Assembly: GCA_017465085.1 (NCBI GenBank)
Contig: JAFTWW010000026.1
Location: forward strand, 1 to 58,396
From: Clostridia bacterium
GTDB taxonomy: Bacteria > Bacillota > Clostridia > Oscillospirales > Acutalibacteraceae
DNA: 58,396 nucleotides
Direction of reading: 5' to 3'
Below, one piece after another: positions 41,055-58,396 of this stretch. The notes below the pieces were generated by a model. The model saw only the letters and a program-made list of their open reading frames with translations, had not been told where the DNA came from and made no database searches. The position numbers and the translations under genes are program-made. Position 1 is the stretch's first letter, and every line of letters begins with the position of its first letter.

Positions 41055-41138
41055 GCGAGTGTGCTGGAATAGGCAGACAGGCACGTTTGAGGGGCGTGTG
41101 TCAACGACGTACGGGTTCAAGTCCCGTCACTCGCACCA
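41055..41138 (+). tRNA. tRNA-Leu (anticodon GAG)
   Basis: Seven-bp acceptor stem (GCGAGTG/CACTCGC), anticodon arm CACGT-TTGAGGG-GCGTG giving anticodon GAG, long variable arm as required for a class II tRNA, T arm CGGGTTCAAGTCCCG, and an encoded CCA end. It marks the boundary between core genes and the AT-rich island, so its 3' end is a candidate attachment site. Confidence 0.95.
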
Positions 41139-41508: not shown

Positions 41509-43464
41509 CTAAAGTGTATCTCCTACAGAAAAACCTATCGCTTCGACTTTCTCTATAAATTCTTTTTTGAAGTTACTAATTTTTGTTTCATCAACATAGA
41601 TAAGTAAGTTTTTCCTTGCACGAGAACAACCTACATAAAATAGTTTATATGCAGTTAATATTCCTTCAACTTTTGAAACCTTAAACACTTTTCTAGCATT
41701 AGTAACATTAGGTTTACTATTAAATGCTAGAAAGTCCTTTTGGTAAATTGATTCAAAGATTTTGTTATCTTTATACTTTTCTAAAATAAATTCGCAGTAT
41801 TGTTTTAAAGTGTCCGAGCATCCTGCGTATGTATCTTTTGTTAAATCATTAATTTTTAATCCTATTTTGCTTTCAAGTTCAGTTATTATGTGAACAAATG
41901 AATAATAAAAATCTTCAAATTCAGGAAGTGAAAAATCAAGTTTAGACCACAGTTCAAAAAAAGAATACATCCTTACATTAGGGTTATTGTTGCTATCGTT
42001 TGAGACAAAAATTACTGATGTGTGACTTTCACCTTTAACTCCGTGCTGTGTAGATATGTAAGGATTGTTTAAATATGCCGATAAATTTTTAACTTCAACA
42101 AAAGAAATATCAAACACATTGGTATATTCTGAGTTTTCATATAGCTTATTTGTAAAATCTTCTTTCAATATACCTAATTGTTCAAAACCATCTATAAGAT
42201 TTTTAACAGAACTTTCTTCATTATCATAGATTGCTTTCAAAAAATCAAATTTTTCCTTTAATGATTTCTTGTCGTTATGATGTTGTAAGTTAAGCGAAGA
42301 AGCATTAAAGTATTTTATTTGCCGTTTGCATGTTGAAATAACAGAGCCATAGTTCCCGTTGGAGTATAGCGTAAAAATCTTATCAACGAATAATAAAAAC
42401 TTCATAAGTATATCTGGATTGTCATCGGATAAGTCTGACAAAACATCAGATGGAGTATATTTTTTCCCAAATGAATACATCTCCATATTATTGTAGCACT
42501 CATAAAGATTGAGTGCACCAATCTCACCATACTTCTCCTTATTCATCAAGTACAAAGTCAGAATTTGGGGGAACTTATTTTGTGCTAGTGCGATAATATC
42601 TTTGGAATTTGAGTTTATTATGACCTTAGGTGAAATATCGGGTTCAACATTCTTGTTGTCTTCTGATGGTTTTTGAATAAACTCGTCAGAATTATATATG
42701 TTGTTTAATATTGTTATAATCTTCCCAATAGATCGGTGGTTAGTTTCCAACCTTTGAGAAACATCAAATTCCTTAAAACTCTCTTCAAAAGATCCATCAT
42801 AATTGTGATATATTTGTTGCATTCTATCACCCAACAAATATAGCTTTACATCGGTTTTGTTTTTTACAGCGTTATAGAACATTTTTAATACATATGCAGA
42901 TGTATCTTGATATTCATCGATAAAGATATAATTATATTTGTCTCTTATTTTTCTCAGTATCACGGGGTATTTTTCCGTTAATAAATATGCAAACATTAAT
43001 AAATCATCGTGTGATAATCTTCCGGAGTAAAGGGATGTAAAAGGAGTTTCACCGTACGATAGTTCAATTAAATTTACCTTAATAATGTCAACAGATAAAC
43101 TTCCAAACTTCTCAATGTAATATTGGTTGCCCTCGGCGATTTTTTCATCGTTTTCAGCATTGTTAATTCTATTGCTTATTTTTTCTCCATACAACGTCCA
43201 ATATAGATCAAGTGCTTCTTTTTGAGCAAAAAACGGTTTGATCAATTCATGAATATATGAGTGTATCGTGCTAACAAAAATATTGGAGCTATCTAAATCT
43301 TTTTTCAATTCTTCTGCCGCTCTGTTGGTATAAGTAATACACAACACTTTACTTTCCGGATGTTTCAAATAAATATTTTTTAAATAATTCCTAATGCTGG
43401 TAGTTTTGCCACTACCAGCAGGTGCATTTATAAGAAATTTATTATTTATTGTTGCATTAACCAT
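41509..43464 (-). CDS. UvrD/Rep-like superfamily 1 helicase (GajB-like)
   Basis: 651 residues. SF1 motifs in order: Walker A NAPAGSGKTT (about 13-22), Ia CITYTNRAAEEL, II FIDEYQDTS (about 181), III LGDRMQQIY, IV TNHRS, V STQHGVKGESH and VI YVGCSRARKNLLIY. The frame overlaps the upstream OLD-family gene by 19 bases. OLD-ATPase/TOPRIM followed by a UvrD-like helicase is the Gabija (GajA-GajB)/class 2 OLD arrangement, in which the helicase is thought to relay signals from phage DNA processing. It is longer than the described GajB of about 500 residues. GAAGGG ribosome binding site. Confidence 0.85.
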   Translation of the reverse strand: MVNATINNKFLINAPAGSGKTTSIRNYLKNIYLKHPESKVLCITYTNRAAEELKKDLDSSNIFVSTIHSYIHELIKPFFAQKEALDLYWTLYGEKISNRINNAENDEKIAEGNQYYIEKFGSLSVDIIKVNLIELSYGETPFTSLYSGRLSHDDLLMFAYLLTEKYPVILRKIRDKYNYIFIDEYQDTSAYVLKMFYNAVKNKTDVKLYLLGDRMQQIYHNYDGSFEESFKEFDVSQRLETNHRSIGKIITILNNIYNSDEFIQKPSEDNKNVEPDISPKVIINSNSKDIIALAQNKFPQILTLYLMNKEKYGEIGALNLYECYNNMEMYSFGKKYTPSDVLSDLSDDNPDILMKFLLFVDKIFTLYSNGNYGSVISTCKRQIKYFNASSLNLQHHNDKKSLKEKFDFLKAIYDNEESSVKNLIDGFEQLGILKEDFTNKLYENSEYTNVFDISFVEVKNLSAYLNNPYISTQHGVKGESHTSVIFVSNDSNNNPNVRMYSFFELWSKLDFSLPEFEDFYYSFVHIITELESKIGLKINDLTKDTYAGCSDTLKQYCEFILEKYKDNKIFESIYQKDFLAFNSKPNVTNARKVFKVSKVEGILTAYKLFYVGCSRARKNLLIYVDETKISNFKKEFIEKVEAIGFSVGDTL

Positions 43465-45587
43465 AATAATCCCTTCTTAATATATTGGGGTAACATCTTT
43501 TCTTCTTGTCCACTTAAAATAACGGAGTACATAAAATCAGTTTTGTTTCCTTTGGTTGATTTTACAATATCCCTAATGGAAAATTCGCTGTCGTCTTCAT
43601 CAACTCTGTTATTTGGTATAGAAAAACTCAATTTGTTGTCCTTTCTGATTGTTTTCCAATCGCTACGCTTTAGAGTGTGAAAAACATCTTTATTTAGTAG
43701 CTTAGCAAGCATAGCCTCTTCCAACGTACGTGCAGTACTCTCTTCATCCTGATATGTAATGCATATTAAATCGTCCATAACAATATTATCCATCGCAGAT
43801 TGTAATGCATACAATTCTTTTATAGTAGGCGTCTGATATGCCTCTGGTTTAGATTCTCGACTAAGCGCTTTGTGAAATGCATTTATTGTTGCATTTGTGC
43901 TTTTGGATTCTTTTGCCACTTCAAAAGTGATTGCACTTATATCATAATCCAAATCAGTGATTATTAAGGATTTTATTTTGAGTTTTTCTAATATTTTCAG
44001 ATAGTTAAAGGCGTATGCCCCACCAACTTGAATAAACGCAATATAATTGTTATTAAGTGAGGAAAATGTAGGTAAATTTATAAGTTTACGAATATAAAGT
44101 CTCTCTGTATCCCCCTCATATAGAACCACTTTATCCGCAAATATTAGTTCTGAATAACCTATTTCAAAAAACCAATCAAAGAAATTTTCAAGGAGATAGT
44201 CAGTTTCATTTTCCGCACAGATTGTTTTTTGCCCTTCGATTTTTCTTTTAAATTCGCTCAAATCGAAAAGTTCACTTTTTGATTTTTCAGTTTGTCTAAT
44301 AACTCTTAAGCTATTTAAACCTACCGATCTAGCAATTTCGTTAGAATGAGTTGTAATGAGCCCTTGTAAACCTTTGTCTGTATAATATTTATTAAGAAAG
44401 CGGATAAATACGTTCTGCATTTGTGGATGCATATGTGCCTCAGGCTCTTCAATAAAGAAAACATTAACTTTCTTTTTATCTATTGAACTTATAAATTCTT
44501 CTAACCTTATGTGCAAATATATCAAATTACTAAATCCAAGTCCTTGTGAATTTTCGTTCAACAATAAACCATCTATATCATATTTGGCACGAGTTATTTT
44601 CTTGATAAAATCATTTACATCATCCTCGTCGACATCCATTTCAAGCAATAATTTGCCTATGTGTCCGCCGCTTGTCTTTGCGACATCTTGTATTGTTGTA
44701 TCAAGAGATTTTATAGATGAATTTTGCATTTTTGCTTTTGCATCCGATTTATCTATTTGCTCTAATAACATATCGGGAAGCTTTTTTGTAGTAGCAATCC
44801 AAGATTCATCATTCTTAAGCAGTGATATTACCCGTTTGCTAATACCTTTTGATACATCTTTTTCATTATCATCAAGATCTCTTCTTACAGCATCGATGTT
44901 TTCGAGATTAAATAACTTTTTGAAGTTAGGCAACTCAATTGAATTAAGATTTTTATATTCTTCGTTACAGTAATAACATTTCTCTATCAAACAACCGCAA
45001 TATAATTTCAAAAGTTCTTCTTTGATAAAATAAGTTTTTGTATCTTTTTCTTTGCAGTCAGGATTTTCAATATCTTCTATTCTGGATTTAATTTTATCAT
45101 AGCGGTCATTAAGCATTCTTTCAAAAGCACTTAAGCTTGGCTCGTAAGTATATACAAAATAGAAAGAATGTTTTGTTTCATCCAAATCCATAAGGTAATC
45201 TACAAAATCTTGGATATCATCATTTTCCGGAGTATAATCCACTTCAATTTTTGCATTAAAAGTATCAATAATGTAATCGCTTGAAAATTCGTTATCTGCA
45301 GAAATAGCATTGATTATTTGAGAAACGCCTTCTTCTTTTGCATGTTCTAACATCACATCACTGAAGATCGGCAAAATTTTATTTACCCAAAGCACAGAAA
45401 GACCAGTAGGGATATCACTGTATTTAAAGACAAATTTGCTTTCGTTAAATATTCCCTTCAAAACAGATATTAACGTGGTTTTTCCGCTATTGTTAGGACC
45501 TGCTAAAACCGTCAAACCATTTTGGAAATTCAATTCAATATGAGACAGTTGCCTATAGTTTGAAACTTCAATTCTTTTTAAAAACAT
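43446..45587 (-). CDS. OLD-family ATPase with TOPRIM nuclease domain (GajA-like)
   Basis: 713 residues from the ATG at 45587 (GAGG nine bases upstream; a TTG three codons earlier overlaps that site). ABC-type ATPase: Walker A GPNNSGKTT (about 30-38), signature NSQGLGFSN, Walker B FFIEEPEAH (about 376), His switch TTHSNE. A TOPRIM domain follows with EGDTE (about 491) and DLDYD (about 545). A Cys cluster (C-x-C-x4-C-x2-C, about 197-207) inside the ATPase insertion may bind zinc. Class 2 OLD/GajA proteins nick or degrade DNA when nucleotide levels drop during phage attack. Here the TOPRIM Asp motif reads DLDYD. Confidence 0.86.
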   Translation of the reverse strand: MFLKRIEVSNYRQLSHIELNFQNGLTVLAGPNNSGKTTLISVLKGIFNESKFVFKYSDIPTGLSVLWVNKILPIFSDVMLEHAKEEGVSQIINAISADNEFSSDYIIDTFNAKIEVDYTPENDDIQDFVDYLMDLDETKHSFYFVYTYEPSLSAFERMLNDRYDKIKSRIEDIENPDCKEKDTKTYFIKEELLKLYCGCLIEKCYYCNEEYKNLNSIELPNFKKLFNLENIDAVRRDLDDNEKDVSKGISKRVISLLKNDESWIATTKKLPDMLLEQIDKSDAKAKMQNSSIKSLDTTIQDVAKTSGGHIGKLLLEMDVDEDDVNDFIKKITRAKYDIDGLLLNENSQGLGFSNLIYLHIRLEEFISSIDKKKVNVFFIEEPEAHMHPQMQNVFIRFLNKYYTDKGLQGLITTHSNEIARSVGLNSLRVIRQTEKSKSELFDLSEFKRKIEGQKTICAENETDYLLENFFDWFFEIGYSELIFADKVVLYEGDTERLYIRKLINLPTFSSLNNNYIAFIQVGGAYAFNYLKILEKLKIKSLIITDLDYDISAITFEVAKESKSTNATINAFHKALSRESKPEAYQTPTIKELYALQSAMDNIVMDDLICITYQDEESTARTLEEAMLAKLLNKDVFHTLKRSDWKTIRKDNKLSFSIPNNRVDEDDSEFSIRDIVKSTKGNKTDFMYSVILSGQEEKMLPQYIKKGLLWLMQQ

Positions 45588-45604
45588 ATAATTCAACCTC
45601 TAAT

Positions 45605-48391: not shown

Positions 48392-48429
48392 GTTTTCTAC
48401 AAAAATTGACAAATCATGGGAGAACATAC

Positions 48430-49905
48430 ATGTCGAAAACTATTACTATACGCAACACAAAAGGCATAAAGAAATTGCATTTCACTTTTCCAGAACGTAG
48501 AGGTGTATATCTTTTGGTTGGACCTAACGGAACTGGAAAGACCACCCTACTAATTTGTATGGATAGAATTTGCAACTCTTACGCTTTTGCACGCGGCTTT
48601 TCTCATCCAAAAAACATTACTGGATATGACGAATATCAAAATGCAACCATTCAGTATGATGTTGATAACGTTTGCGTATTGTTTAGAAAAAAACAATATA
48701 AGTGGGCTCCCTCTCCGTGGAAAGGAAATGGAGAACTTTTAGATGCTTTTGGTTATACTGGTTCTATTTTTATAAAAGCTGATTCGAAGAGAATTGATGC
48801 AACCGCAGATGAAATTGAGCGTGGAACCACTCAAGCTGCAGATCCTGTTCTTGTGCGAACATTAAATCAAATTTTTGAAACATCCAAATATGATAATTTG
48901 AAAAAGCTTAAAGTGACTCATGGAAGAGGTAAGCCTTCATCATATTTTAATGTGATTAAGGACGGAAGATTTTATTATACCGAAAAAAGATTTAGCACAG
49001 GAGAAATTGCAATTCTTAGATTGATTGAAAATGTGGAATTAGCCTGTAATGGTTCGTTAGTCTTATTAGACGAAGCCGAAATGGCATTGCATCCACGTGT
49101 TCAAGTTAATTTGTTGAACTATCTAAAAGAGAAAGCACAAGAAAAGAATTTGACAATTTTTATATCAACTCATTCACCTACACTCATCAAATCCACCAAC
49201 GAAAAAGATATAATGTTGTTGGAATCAGATTCTCGAGGAAATATTGAAGTCTGCACACCATGTTATCCTGCAAGAGCTTTGGGTGGTATCGACTATGAAG
49301 AATCCAAGATTTTTGATTATGTATTTTTTGTTGAAGACGATATGGCCAGATTATTCTTAAAGAGGATGGTATATAGATATGGAACAATAGCGCCTTGCCA
49401 TTCAACAGCATTAACTTCTATTATTCCTGTTGGAGGTTTTTGTCAAACCGCTAATCTAGCTGTTGTGACAAACAATCAGTTGTTCGGACATTCTAAAGTT
49501 TTTGCGTTAGTTGACTCGGATGCATTTGATGATTTGGATCAAAAACCAGATTTTACTGAACTGTTAAATAGACATAGAGAAATTATTAAAGATCTTTCAG
49601 TTACTCCTGAAGTGAAATTTATAGAAATTTTATCTTCTGCAGACGAAAGCCTAAAATTAAACTTTAGAAATCGAATGCACTGCGAAATACCAACAATACT
49701 TAATAGTGTCGAATACAGAAATTGTTCTTCAACCAACAACAGAAAACTAGCTAAAAGAAGATTTGAAGTGTTTATTAATAAGTGTATTAGTTTCTCAGGT
49801 GATAGCGAAGAAACTGTTAAGACCGATTTAATAAATATGCTTGTTGATACATTACCAGATGGGGATGTTCAACATTTATTAGGTCCAATATTTAACTGTC
49901 ACTAA
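48430..49905 (+). CDS. AAA ATPase with TOPRIM domain (OLD-like)
   Basis: 491 residues from the ATG at 48430 (GGGAGA eight bases upstream). Walker A GPNGTGKTT (about 31), ABC signature-like RFSTGE (about 187), Walker B LVLLDEAE (about 210), His switch STHSP (about 246), then a TOPRIM-like region FFVEDDMA (about 300) and ALVDSDAFDD (about 359). Shorter than the OLD protein of the divergent operon and not closely alike in sequence. Such proteins are frequent effectors in phage defence. Cotranscribed with a small Cys-His-Asp protein; a terminator after that gene closes the unit. Confidence 0.8.
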   Translation: MSKTITIRNTKGIKKLHFTFPERRGVYLLVGPNGTGKTTLLICMDRICNSYAFARGFSHPKNITGYDEYQNATIQYDVDNVCVLFRKKQYKWAPSPWKGNGELLDAFGYTGSIFIKADSKRIDATADEIERGTTQAADPVLVRTLNQIFETSKYDNLKKLKVTHGRGKPSSYFNVIKDGRFYYTEKRFSTGEIAILRLIENVELACNGSLVLLDEAEMALHPRVQVNLLNYLKEKAQEKNLTIFISTHSPTLIKSTNEKDIMLLESDSRGNIEVCTPCYPARALGGIDYEESKIFDYVFFVEDDMARLFLKRMVYRYGTIAPCHSTALTSIIPVGGFCQTANLAVVTNNQLFGHSKVFALVDSDAFDDLDQKPDFTELLNRHREIIKDLSVTPEVKFIEILSSADESLKLNFRNRMHCEIPTILNSVEYRNCSSTNNRKLAKRRFEVFINKCISFSGDSEETVKTDLINMLVDTLPDGDVQHLLGPIFNCH

Positions 49906-50499: not shown

Positions 50500-51192
<693 letters not shown>

Positions 51193-55710: not shown

Positions 55711-56451
55711 ATGAGTTACAAAACAATTTCTTATGATTCTTGGGATGAGTTTAAGAGGGACTATTGTAGGGACTTATTTAATAAGAACAATTTTGAACCG
55801 GACGTATTTATATTTAGAGGTCAAGGCAGTTCGGATTGGGATTTAATATCTAGTTTTGATAGAAATTACTCCATATTAAATTACGAGAACAGAAAAACGG
55901 CCGAAGAAGAGTTAATTACTCTTTTTGAAAATAATTGTAAGCGTAATATTCTAGGAACCAAAATTAGTGATATGTCTGCTATAGAAAAAAGAAGTATTGC
56001 TCAGCATTATGGGGTTCCTACACGATTGCTCGATTGGTCTAGTAGCCCTTTTGTAGCTGCTTACTTTGCGTTTTCAACGTGCGTCGCAACTGATGGTAAA
56101 GTTGCTATTTGGGCTTTGAAAAAGAATCATCGAGTCTTTAATGAATATCCTGGATTAACTATACAAGAGCAATTAGTTGGTGAAAATGAACATCAGAAAA
56201 AACAATTGGGGTGTTTTACTTTGTTAGACAGTCCCGCAAGATCTGTTAATAATTTTGTTGAATTGTGTGAAAATCATTGTTCAATAGAAGATGCCTTGTA
56301 CAAATTAACGCTTCCTGCTACTGATTTTAGGATTGCTTTATATGAATTAGAAGCTATGAATATTAACGCTTCCACCATATATGGTGGATATGAAGGATGT
56401 GCAAAAGCAGCACGTGATATGGTATCTTTTAAATATTTGTATACAGAATAA
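55711..56451 (+). CDS. FRG-domain protein
   Basis: 246 residues. Defining motifs are FRGQGSSDW (about 35-43) and IAQHYGVPTRLLDWSSSPFVAAYFAF (about 96-121), with KKQLGCFTLL and a conserved Glu-containing YELEAMNI region behind. FRG domains occur in mobile and defence contexts. The Arg of FRG, the polar TRLLDWSSSP stretch and a late Glu are reminiscent of ADP-ribosyltransferase folds, which is an inference. AAAGGA before the ATG. Second gene of a two-gene unit with a P-loop ATPase. Confidence 0.82.
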   Translation: MSYKTISYDSWDEFKRDYCRDLFNKNNFEPDVFIFRGQGSSDWDLISSFDRNYSILNYENRKTAEEELITLFENNCKRNILGTKISDMSAIEKRSIAQHYGVPTRLLDWSSSPFVAAYFAFSTCVATDGKVAIWALKKNHRVFNEYPGLTIQEQLVGENEHQKKQLGCFTLLDSPARSVNNFVELCENHCSIEDALYKLTLPATDFRIALYELEAMNINASTIYGGYEGCAKAARDMVSFKYLYTE

Positions 56452-56517
56452 CAATAACACTAATTTTGTTAATGTTTTCTTGAAACTCATATAAAACCTT
56501 TTTTTACATTTTTATCA

Positions 56518-56546
56518 AAGAGTCGCATTTCGCGACTCTTAATTTT
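56518..56546 (+). terminator. Terminator of the ATPase-FRG operon
   Basis: AAGAGTCGC (56518-56526) pairs with GCGACTCTT (56532-56540), followed by a T run. Confidence 0.85.
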
Positions 56547-56566
56547 TTGTAAAAGAGGTTAAAAAT

Positions 56567-56833
56567 ATGAAAAAACATGATGAAGAATCAATGAAGAGAA
56601 GAGAACAAAGGCATAAAGAAGTGCGTGAGGGTTTTATAAAAAATTTAAATGCACTTATGTATGAACGAAATTATTCGTGTCAGCAGCTAAGCATTAATAT
56701 TGGTAAGAACATCAGCTATATTAATCGCATTTTGAACAACAAAATTATGCCTAGTATAGAAGTGCTGGCCGATATAGCAGATGTGTTTGGAATAGAAGAA
56801 TCCGAGCTGCTTAAAAATTTGCACGACCTGTGA
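56567..56833 (+). CDS. Small XRE-type helix-turn-helix regulator
   Basis: 88 residues. A charged helix (1-22) precedes one HTH_3 domain (about 25-82: LMYERNYSCQQLSINIGKNISYINRILNNKIMPSIEVLADIADVFGI). AAAGAGG before the ATG. It lies directly before a long structured non-coding region and is the best candidate for its regulator or for control of the island. Confidence 0.82.
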   Translation: MKKHDEESMKRREQRHKEVREGFIKNLNALMYERNYSCQQLSINIGKNISYINRILNNKIMPSIEVLADIADVFGIEESELLKNLHDL

Positions 56834-56855
56834 GTCGTGGATTCTTCCAAACCCA

Positions 56856-56884
56856 TTGACACCCTAAAAACAAGATGTTAAACT
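56856..56884 (+). promoter_or_regulatory. Possible promoter of the structured RNA
   Basis: TTGACA (56856-56861), 17-base spacer, TAAACT (56879-56884). The -35 is perfect, the -10 has two mismatches. It would start a transcript near 56891. Confidence 0.45.
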
Positions 56885-56890
56885 GACTAT

Positions 56891-57062
56891 GTCACATTTG
56901 AAATAAAGCAGGAGTGTTTTAAAAGATAACGAAAATGCAATGTACCGAATGGGTGAATTGCGCTTGTTAGTTACGCTTTGCTCCTGCGTATAGGACTAAG
57001 GCAAAAGGACTGCAAGTGGGCACTTACCTTTCGGGGTAAGTGCTTTTTGTTATCTTTTGCCT
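56891..57062 (+). ncRNA. Candidate pseudoknotted RNA ending in a terminator hairpin
   Basis: No protein frame. GCAGGAG (56908-56914) can pair with CTCCTGC (56981-56987), and AAAAGATAAC (56921-56930) with GTTATCTTTT (57049-57058); these cross, forming a pseudoknot. Between them lies a hairpin GCAAT...ATTGC (about 56937-56961). GCACTTACC (57020-57028) pairs with GGTAAGTGC (57035-57043), followed by five T. GGCAAAAG (57000-57007) can compete for CTTTTGCC (57054-57061). Either a small RNA of about 170 nt or the 5' part of the larger RNA that follows. Confidence 0.45.
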
Positions 57063-58396
57063 TCTTTTTATGTTTTGTTCTCCGGTAAGTGACGGGTTCA
57101 AAATAAAACGCATAAAGGGAGGAGTTAGCAAAAGTCTTGTATTTGACATGGGAAGTTAGTTGCGCCAAAGGTTTGGTGCCAAGTACAGCAGCCTGAGTTC
57201 TGCGACAGGCTGTGAATCACTAGCAGAAAAGCCCTTGAAGTCGGGATTGACTTCATCAGTCGATGCTCTAAGGCTGATTATCCGTAGGACCGAAAAGTGG
57301 AAATACGGAATTAAAGAGCTATCACGGTTACGGCAGCGGACAGGGTGATATATGGTAGATAGGCTTGCAGGATGCAATGAACCTATTGCGTTGCTCGGTT
57401 TTATGGTTTCCGTAAAAAAATCAGAACCCACTTTCACGCAGTGGTCCGAAATATGATAGTACGAAAAGCTGTGATATACAAAGCCCTTCACAAAGGCGAT
57501 GCGAACTAAAATGTGCGGATATCAGAGCCGTTACGAAACAAGGATTATTTGACTGCGAACCTGCGCACACGGCAGACAGGATGGTACAGTGTGGAAAAAC
57601 CACTTGTGCACAGTGGGCGAAGATGCAAAGTGCAATATGCAGATCTGCCTTCACTTATGGCAATCTGTGAACGAAAATAAGTGCGTAACGGCGGCTTGGA
57701 TTCAGCCTTAAGTTATTGACGAAAATTATGGAATCCACGACGTTTGAGAGTTCCGTCGGTAAATAAAACTGCTCAAGCGGTGGTGCTGCCGTCCTTTAAG
57801 GGAAATCTCCGTCCCTTATGGGAATTGCATACGAAGTTTCCGGGATTTAATCGGTAATGAAAATCCCCGCCGAACGAGTTGTTTAGTCTCGGCTAGGCTG
57901 AAATGCCTTGCACTCGGCGTAGCGTCAGCAAGCAATACAAGGTTGCTTGCACTCTTGGATTTCAAGAGAACACGCACGGAAAATCTATTAATCTTGCGTT
58001 AAAGTGAGAATAGATTAAGCCAAGTACTAACCTTATTTTACAGCAGAATACCAGAACAGAACTTTCGCTTCGGGATGATTTATGACTGTCTCTTCGAGAG
58101 TGTATGATTTACCTTTCGAGAGTAAGTTGCACCTGCTAAACAAACCTTCGGCTCTTTGCAAGTTGTCATTCGTATTATGAATGACAAGCTGCAGGAAGCC
58201 GAAGAGAATAACGAACAAACTACAAAGCAGGTGCTATGACTATCATTTCTATGATGATAGATGATTGTCCTTTAGAAATGATTTATGACTCTCTTTTTGG
58301 GAGCCGAGCCGTTTCTATTGGACTTTAGTCAGATAGAAACGGCTCGGAGACGCAGTCGGAGAGCCGAGATTAGCAGGGCATAATACCCCGCGTCAA
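57063..58396 (+). ncRNA. Large structured non-coding RNA candidate, open at the window end
   Basis: About 1.33 kb without a credible gene but dense in perfect helices: 57189-57212, 57237-57254, 57282-57308, 57359-57387 (two nested), 57428-57444, 57640-57667 (two nested), 57843-57868, 57927-57950, and AATCTATT/AATAGATT at about 57981-58016. A three-level nest at 58128-58234 is closed by GCACCTGCT/AGCAGGTGC, and a 15-bp stem CCGAGCCGTTTCTAT/ATAGAAACGGCTCGG spans about 58303-58347. ATGATTTATGACT occurs twice (58074-58086, 58278-58290). Size, ornateness and placement in an integrated island recall GOLLD and ROOL RNAs; identity is not confirmed. Strand is inferred from the upstream promoter. Confidence 0.5.

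Follow-up and report, generated by a model that had tools for sequence, protein, structure and literature searches.

Introduction

The final 1.56 kb of this contig (positions 56834-58396), which begins just after a gene for an 88-aa XRE-type regulator, raises the question of what kind of element it represents, and whether its dense nesting of helices belongs to an RNA. The window, by which we mean the whole stretch of 58,396 nucleotides that was analysed, is a complete contig (C13) of a 1.66-Mb genome assembled in 52 contigs. The original prediction was of a very large structured non-coding RNA, belonging either to GOLLD or ROOL or to a new class. We conclude, with a probability of about 0.85, that the region is most of a gene whose product forms a new class of large structured RNA; in its fuller relatives this RNA measures about 1.2-1.8 kb. 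Sequence comparison supports this reading through conservation, covarying helices, linkage to a recombinase, terminators in divergent members and, in two clean loci, cargo bounded by the repeated sites. Few bacterial RNAs this large are known, and as the protein next to this one and the adjoining DNA site are both defined, its role is directly testable.

Extent, coding content and folding of the region

The location originally proposed is real, and the true feature is longer, as the contig end truncates a hairpin whose other arm is present in relatives. An inverted-repeat search of 56830-58396 returned 22 pairs, in keeping with the more than a dozen perfect, often nested helices that had been described; the three-level nest reported at 58128-58234 was recovered as one hairpin enclosing another (Table 1), the inner helix having 24 bp, 98% of them canonical, with six pairs changed on both sides in a structure chosen on the same alignment, and the stem noted near 58303-58347 has arms (58304-58324/58327-58347) of 21 nt that are 90% complementary. 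Minimum free energies lie well below those of dinucleotide shuffles, with z = -4.15 for 56900-57899 and z = -7.97 for 57400-58396, and in neither case did any of 20 shuffles fold as well. The longest complete open reading frame in 56834-58396 encodes 111 aa on the minus strand and no frame is convincing; no frame-conserving protein alignment emerged either, the indels relative to seven relatives being mostly not multiples of three. The reported lack of any frame with a ribosome binding site holds in the window, but not for the relatives, whose 5' leaders contain short ORFs preceded by Shine-Dalgarno (SD) sequences.

No Rfam family matched the window at the gathering threshold, matches to the structured region at E up to 5 were at chance level, and two fuller relatives (L027 and L028) gave no family match at E up to 3. 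These cmscan searches of the window, L027 and L028 returned no match to the GOLLD or ROOL covariance models, and on the same basis OLE, group I and II introns and rRNA were rejected; the weak matches seen (miRNAs, snoRNAs, Ysr49, RMST_4 and others) scored far under their gathering scores and were rejected. One structural proposal failed, namely a domain of about 900 nt closed by pairing of GTCGTGGATTC (56834-56844) with 57731-57741. This pairing is unsupported: the string falls after the XRE stop codon and before the -35 box of the best promoter-like site, and so probably lies outside the transcript, and it was found on the RNA sense strand in none of the six relatives inspected.

The XRE regulator and the defence genes said to precede the RNA are both present. 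The window has a Gabija pair 0.4 kb after a tRNA-Leu gene, at which point G+C drops from about 0.40 to 0.31, two further proteins recognised by PADLOC models in the island that contains the RNA, and a second exact copy of TTTTCTTGAAA just 5' of a resolvase-like gene.

Table 1. Features of the window, from the tRNA-Leu gene to the contig end
Feature	Position	Strand	Evidence or remark
tRNA-Leu gene	41055..41138		
GajB-like gene (Gabija)	41509..43464		Gabija pair spans 41509-45596
GajA-like gene (Gabija)	43446..45596		
ATPase-Toprim-like protein	48406..49905		PADLOC model
Second exact TTTTCTTGAAA	50491..50501		
Resolvase-like gene	50512..51192		
FRG-domain (PDC-S15-like) protein	55711..56451		PADLOC model
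Conserved block 5' of XRE gene	56470..56560	+	85-91% identity to L028, L030, L038; 82% to L076
TTTTCTTGAAA, -35-like string within conserved block	56475..56485	+	Motif search; recurs near several relatives' recombinases (by eye)
Small XRE-type helix-turn-helix gene, 88 aa	56567..56833	+	Pfam HTH_19, HTH_3, HTH_26
Promoter-like site TTGACA-17-TAAACT, extended -10	56856..56884	+	Promoter-pattern scan
5' leader	56885..57147	+	Different leader in L027-type relatives
Pairing competing with terminator-like leader hairpin	56921-56935/57044-57058	+	Inverted-repeat scan
Terminator-like hairpin in 5' leader	57018..57045	+	Inverted-repeat and terminator scans
Conserved core of RNA	57148..58059	+	15-sequence alignment; alifold helices changed on both sides
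Core stretch tested for covariation, 9 helices	57836..58034	+	96.6% of 528 cells paired; 17/48 pairs changed on both sides
24-nt sense-strand repeat, five copies	58082..58308	+	Starts 58082, 58104, 58236, 58261, 58285
Nested long hairpin	58129..58234	+	Arms 58129-58137/58226-58234 and 58146-58174/58176-58204
Hairpin A, near-invariant GUUUCUAU/AUAGAAAC core	58304..58347	+	12/18 pairs changed on both sides; 94.1% of cells paired; 19 sequences
Hairpin B, 5' arm, truncated by contig end	58373..58396	+	7/14 pairs changed on both sides in relatives; 3' arm visible only in relatives

Relatives and linkage to a tyrosine recombinase

Matches to the DNA of the region were found in 17 of 149 genomes (the window's own included, and some matches short), 16 of them from the same genus and one from another family of the order. 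The relatives' copies often lie at contig ends, or their contigs end inside the element, which fits the presence of several copies per genome; four genomes (G001, G034, G059 and G220) have several matches each to the recombinase described here. This tyrosine recombinase, the real neighbour of the RNA, is located beyond the window, whose contig stops before it: in L027 and L036 it starts 0.56-0.58 kb past the point that matches the contig end, on the same strand, with further hairpins and repeats in between. A search with its sequence (threshold E 1e-15) reached 28 of 296 genomes, which belong to several families of the order, and a scan of named genomes yielded 46 loci, all of them records of metagenome-assembled genomes or uncultured bins, mostly from Oscillospiraceae and other Clostridia; many bear isolate names that refer to herbivore guts. 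When 31 of these 46 loci were compared with an RNA profile, it matched upstream of the recombinase in 28 regions, some of the matches being short, weak or confined to the 3' part, and found nothing there in L099, L107 and L135. In L099 only the last part of the repeat array stands beside the recombinase, and what appears by eye to be a transglutaminase-like gene occupies the place of the RNA.

The linkage also appears when the search starts from the RNA. A covariance model of the 3' module (R1; its E-values are rough), which matches the window at 58284-58392, scored at least 90 bits at 18 places in 17 genomes of the samples of relatives (296 genomes) and of the order (394 genomes), nine of these places having been part of the model itself. 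The sequence extends past the RNA at 15 of the 18, where 14 carry the family recombinase and one (G367) another tyrosine recombinase. Among the nine places outside the model, the family recombinase is present in five (G026, G042, G251, G419 and G542) and the other enzyme in G367, while in G000, G414 and G479 the sequence ends too soon to reach a recombinase. Matches below 45 bits (L193-L198), with no family recombinase within the stretch listed, were treated as chance. At E 1e-6 the class (391 genomes) and phylum (299 genomes) samples yielded nothing outside the order, two genomes matching each time, namely G000 itself and a weak G108 of the same order.

Two further observations concern individual records. 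Near-identical recombinases occur in bins labelled Alphaproteobacteria and Opitutales (L101 and L104), which may reflect contamination or transfer, and the more distant recombinases of L090 and L091, of other families, are preceded by about 1.4 kb that the two share (88% DNA identity); this stretch contains internal repeats, though not the 24-nt repeat, has mildly low folding z-scores and is possibly another RNA of this kind.

Locus architecture, core sites and cargo

In the fullest relatives the order is an XRE gene (often), a promoter, a 5' leader, the core, 24-nt repeats with hairpins A and B, TTTTCGTACACA core sites and the recombinase. The RNA extends over about 1.8 kb in L097, 1.6 kb in L129 and 1.2 kb in L031, as judged from profile-match spans and from sites placed by eye. 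Just upstream of it, a plus-strand XRE-like ORF was found in 8 of the 24 regions tested and was absent from the other 16, some regions being too short; the gene is also upstream in the window, L031 and L188. The 5' leader is of at least two kinds: L027, L101 and L105 share the core with the window, L098 and L129 but have a different leader, whose promoter is a perfect TTGACA-17-TATAAT and for which no XRE gene was found; the leader of the window group usually stands behind an XRE gene. In the 3' part of the RNA, the tandem 24-nt repeat has the sense-strand consensus ATGACTNTCNTTTCGAAATGA.

Between RNA and recombinase, the TTTTCGTACACA sites are repeated 74 bp apart; in cargo-free loci their usual positions relative to the recombinase are about -157 and -83, and in L075 the 74-bp unit between the cores is tandemly doubled. 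The partner enzyme is a tyrosine recombinase by its match to PF00589 (Phage_integrase, 41 bits), and R157, K183, H268, R271, H300 and Y309, which we take to be its catalytic residues, are invariant in 15 relatives. Of 38 entries examined, which include a few mutual copies, nine distinct loci (L033, L101, L109, L110, L122, L124, L127, L128 and L134) have ORFs of at least 70 aa in the stretch from the last repeat to the recombinase. The main ORFs of these loci are antisense to the recombinase; L033 has one 121-aa sense ORF and two more plus-strand genes inside the repeat array, so the cargo is not always antisense. Pfam assigns the cargo to TIR, Schlafen/AlbA with HATPase, HTH, sigma-70 regions and Fic/Doc with a Phd/YefM antitoxin, and gave no match for 3 of the 10 cargo proteins scanned. 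With L098, which is empty, as reference, L101 has its cargo in place of the 74-bp unit that separates the two cores (breaks at -151 and -85). In L109 the cargo comes after the second core, and 20 nt of L098 are common to both flanks. These arrangements, clean in these two loci only, are what site-specific capture would leave.

Covariation of the helices

Two parts of the region were tested for covariation. In the 3' module (hairpins A and B, from 58284; 19 sequences), 90.2% of 600 cells pair and 19 of 32 pairs have changed on both sides; the observed value was reached by none of 500 shuffles on each of five measures, and slid-register controls paired at only 36.3-42.5%. The alignment used (A3), in which helix A is alignment-derived and helix B hand-drawn, is biased toward structure, and it omits the window itself and L098, both of which are without part of the module. 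For the core stretch 57836-58034 (11 sequences; Table 1), none of 500 shuffles reached the observed value on four measures, and the measure of further pair types did not exceed the shuffles (355 of 500). Here the structure was predicted from the same alignment (A4), which again biases it toward structure, and 4 of the 15 full-length sequences are omitted, L097 as too window-like and L125, L128 and L129 as too divergent there. Against strand-own column shuffles, the mean alifold z over eight windows of the RNA was -7.6 on the plus and -6.7 on the minus strand, compared with -2.1 and -1.4 over four recombinase-coding windows. Homologues with covarying helices exist, both modules showing compensatory changes, and the large structured non-coding RNA that had been predicted is well supported.

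RNA or DNA

The same helices could also serve in DNA. Under this explanation, which we consider unlikely, the hairpins and 24-nt repeats, at least in the 3' third, act as palindromic or extruded recombination sites or as accessory (arm-type) sites, and transcription is incidental. In many loci about 10 bp separate the last repeat copy from the first core site, and the repeats are all on one strand, both of which suit DNA sites, as does the lack of a G.T excess over A.C in the 3' module (24 to 18, no clear asymmetry; 11 to 23 in windows from 58240 on, ten sequences). Against it, G.T exceeds A.C by 27 to 4 in the core stretch (A4) and by 68 to 29 summed over windows up to 58239 (ten sequences), the structure reaches more than 1 kb from the core sites, and promoter-like starts and U-tailed terminators flank the region. 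A promoter-like 5' end with at least 9 of 12 consensus bases is present in 11 of 13 relatives, a count that has no shuffle control; three (L027, L101 and L105) have all 12, and among the 13 loci examined L097 yielded no such end. U-tailed terminator hairpins with a similar loop were recognised by eye in the divergent members L028, L031, L032, L081 and L086. Within the region itself, promoter-like sites are not above chance (5 compared with 3.3 expected in shuffles) and terminator-like sites are (7 compared with 1.8).

Other strand counts are mixed. For all 15 sequences G.T and A.C number 78 and 71, and in other windows 105 and 78. Plus-strand energy is lower in 15 of 15 single sequences and in 15 of 16 alignment windows, but this test loses force because recombinase coding DNA behaves likewise (12 of 13; other upstream DNA, 4 of 7), and in its single-sequence form it was dropped as evidence of a transcript. 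Weighing the promoter and terminator signals and the G.T asymmetry against these mixed counts, we infer that the region is transcribed and consider that the core probably acts as RNA, while the 3' module may work as RNA, DNA or both.

If an RNA is made, it might be no more than a very long cis-regulatory leader of the recombinase gene, acting by attenuation or in a riboswitch-like manner. The RNA is on the same strand as the recombinase and immediately 5' of it, its 5' leader contains a terminator-like hairpin with a competing pairing (Table 1), and short SD-preceded ORFs of 53-57 aa occur in the leaders of 4 of 15 relatives. A leader of this sort is nevertheless improbable, as the divergent members terminate the RNA before the core sites and the recombinase is in some loci up to 2.9 kb away, behind antisense cargo. 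The 53-57-aa ORF, which is not in the window, is conserved at the RNA start of L112, L115, L117 and L118 with a good ribosome binding site, and a terminator-like hairpin comes next.

A possible role in recombination

As a mechanism for the new RNA we tentatively put forward, at somewhat less than even odds, that it is a scaffold, or a regulator or decoy, of the recombinase; every functional step that follows is one we infer. The unit of the locus would be, often, an XRE regulator, then the RNA, recombination-like sites, optional and mostly antisense cargo, and the tyrosine recombinase. The RNA would be transcribed, under control of the XRE protein where one is present, and would be a dedicated part of the recombinase locus, acting as scaffold or decoy. 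Through its hairpins and tandem 24-nt repeats it would bind either the recombinase itself or an accessory protein beside the recombination sites, and this binding would determine the timing and manner of cassette capture, retention or excision. A bolder and rather doubtful version is that of a non-integron gene-capture platform of gut Clostridia, in which the 1.2-1.8-kb RNA would be part of the recombination machinery, binding the recombinase through its 24-nt elements and helping to choose, order or silence cassettes at TTTTCGTACACA. Were the RNA to take part in recombination, site-specific recombinases would be seen to work on a new principle, which would also bear on how defence and toxin-antitoxin genes spread among gut bacteria.

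The size and ornate folding of the RNA and its mobile-element setting, with recombinase and defence cargo, would also be compatible with an RNA that forms particles or acts in packaging for a satellite-like element, similar in action to GOLLD and to ROOL, which assembles as an RNA-only homo-oligomeric cage, and unrelated to either. This is improbable, since neither the DNA nor the partner recombinase has a match among phage records, scans of IMG/VR with the recombinase, the core site and hairpin A (exact patterns, which reach close relatives only) found nothing, and none of the 17 relative loci examined contains a tRNA. Among plasmids, 14 records have recombinases, whose identity does not exceed 36%. 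A decayed and functionless repeat or an assembly artefact, which contigs ending in the element and truncated copies such as L099 might suggest, is very improbable, being largely refuted by compensatory changes across diverged sequences and by the same order and the same partner in several families of the order.

Relation to known systems

Of the two options in the original prediction, a new class is the one supported; membership of GOLLD or ROOL is not, given the lack of an Rfam match, of a phage record and of a tRNA link, the window's only tRNA gene lying 15.7 kb from the RNA. The excerpt of PMC12286853 describes GOLLD and ROOL as very large, intricately folded bacterial RNAs of mobile elements with unknown function, gives a ROOL example of 659 nt and many GOLLD of more than 800 nt, and calls the functions of GOLLD, ROOL and OLE poorly understood. 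The new RNA resembles them in large size, intricate fold and mobile-element setting, but is longer, has no Rfam match and has a recombinase as partner instead of phage genes or tRNA islands. OLE, a large structured RNA of Gram-positive bacteria in the excerpt of PMC9723947, differs in its length of about 600 nt and in working with Oap proteins, and the new RNA does not match its model.

Integrons share with the locus a tyrosine recombinase, cargo read away from the recombinase and short repeated sites adjoining it; a cassette array like theirs may exist where core sites bound the cargo (L101 and L109) or where the 74-bp unit is doubled (L075). The recombinase is not of the IntI type, scoring 33.8 bits against the integron-integrase model TIGR02249, for which the cut-off is 265, and we know of no long covarying RNA among the parts of integrons. 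Tyrosine-recombinase islands with an XRE regulator are similar in their XRE gene, recombinase and defence cargo (Gabija in the window) and differ in lacking the large conserved RNA and the 74-bp core-site units.

Among open-licence papers, judged by title and the start of the abstract, we found nothing on a large structured RNA with a tyrosine recombinase and cargo sites, which is weak evidence as it comes from such papers only. PMC8040213 mentions 28 RNA candidates that neighbour integrase, sortase or phage domains, and one or another of them may be a fragment of this RNA. Taken by itself, the RNA would form a new class among the loosely grouped large ornate RNAs. We regard the system as a whole as categorically new, since we know of no other kind in which an RNA like this one is paired with a locus like this one.
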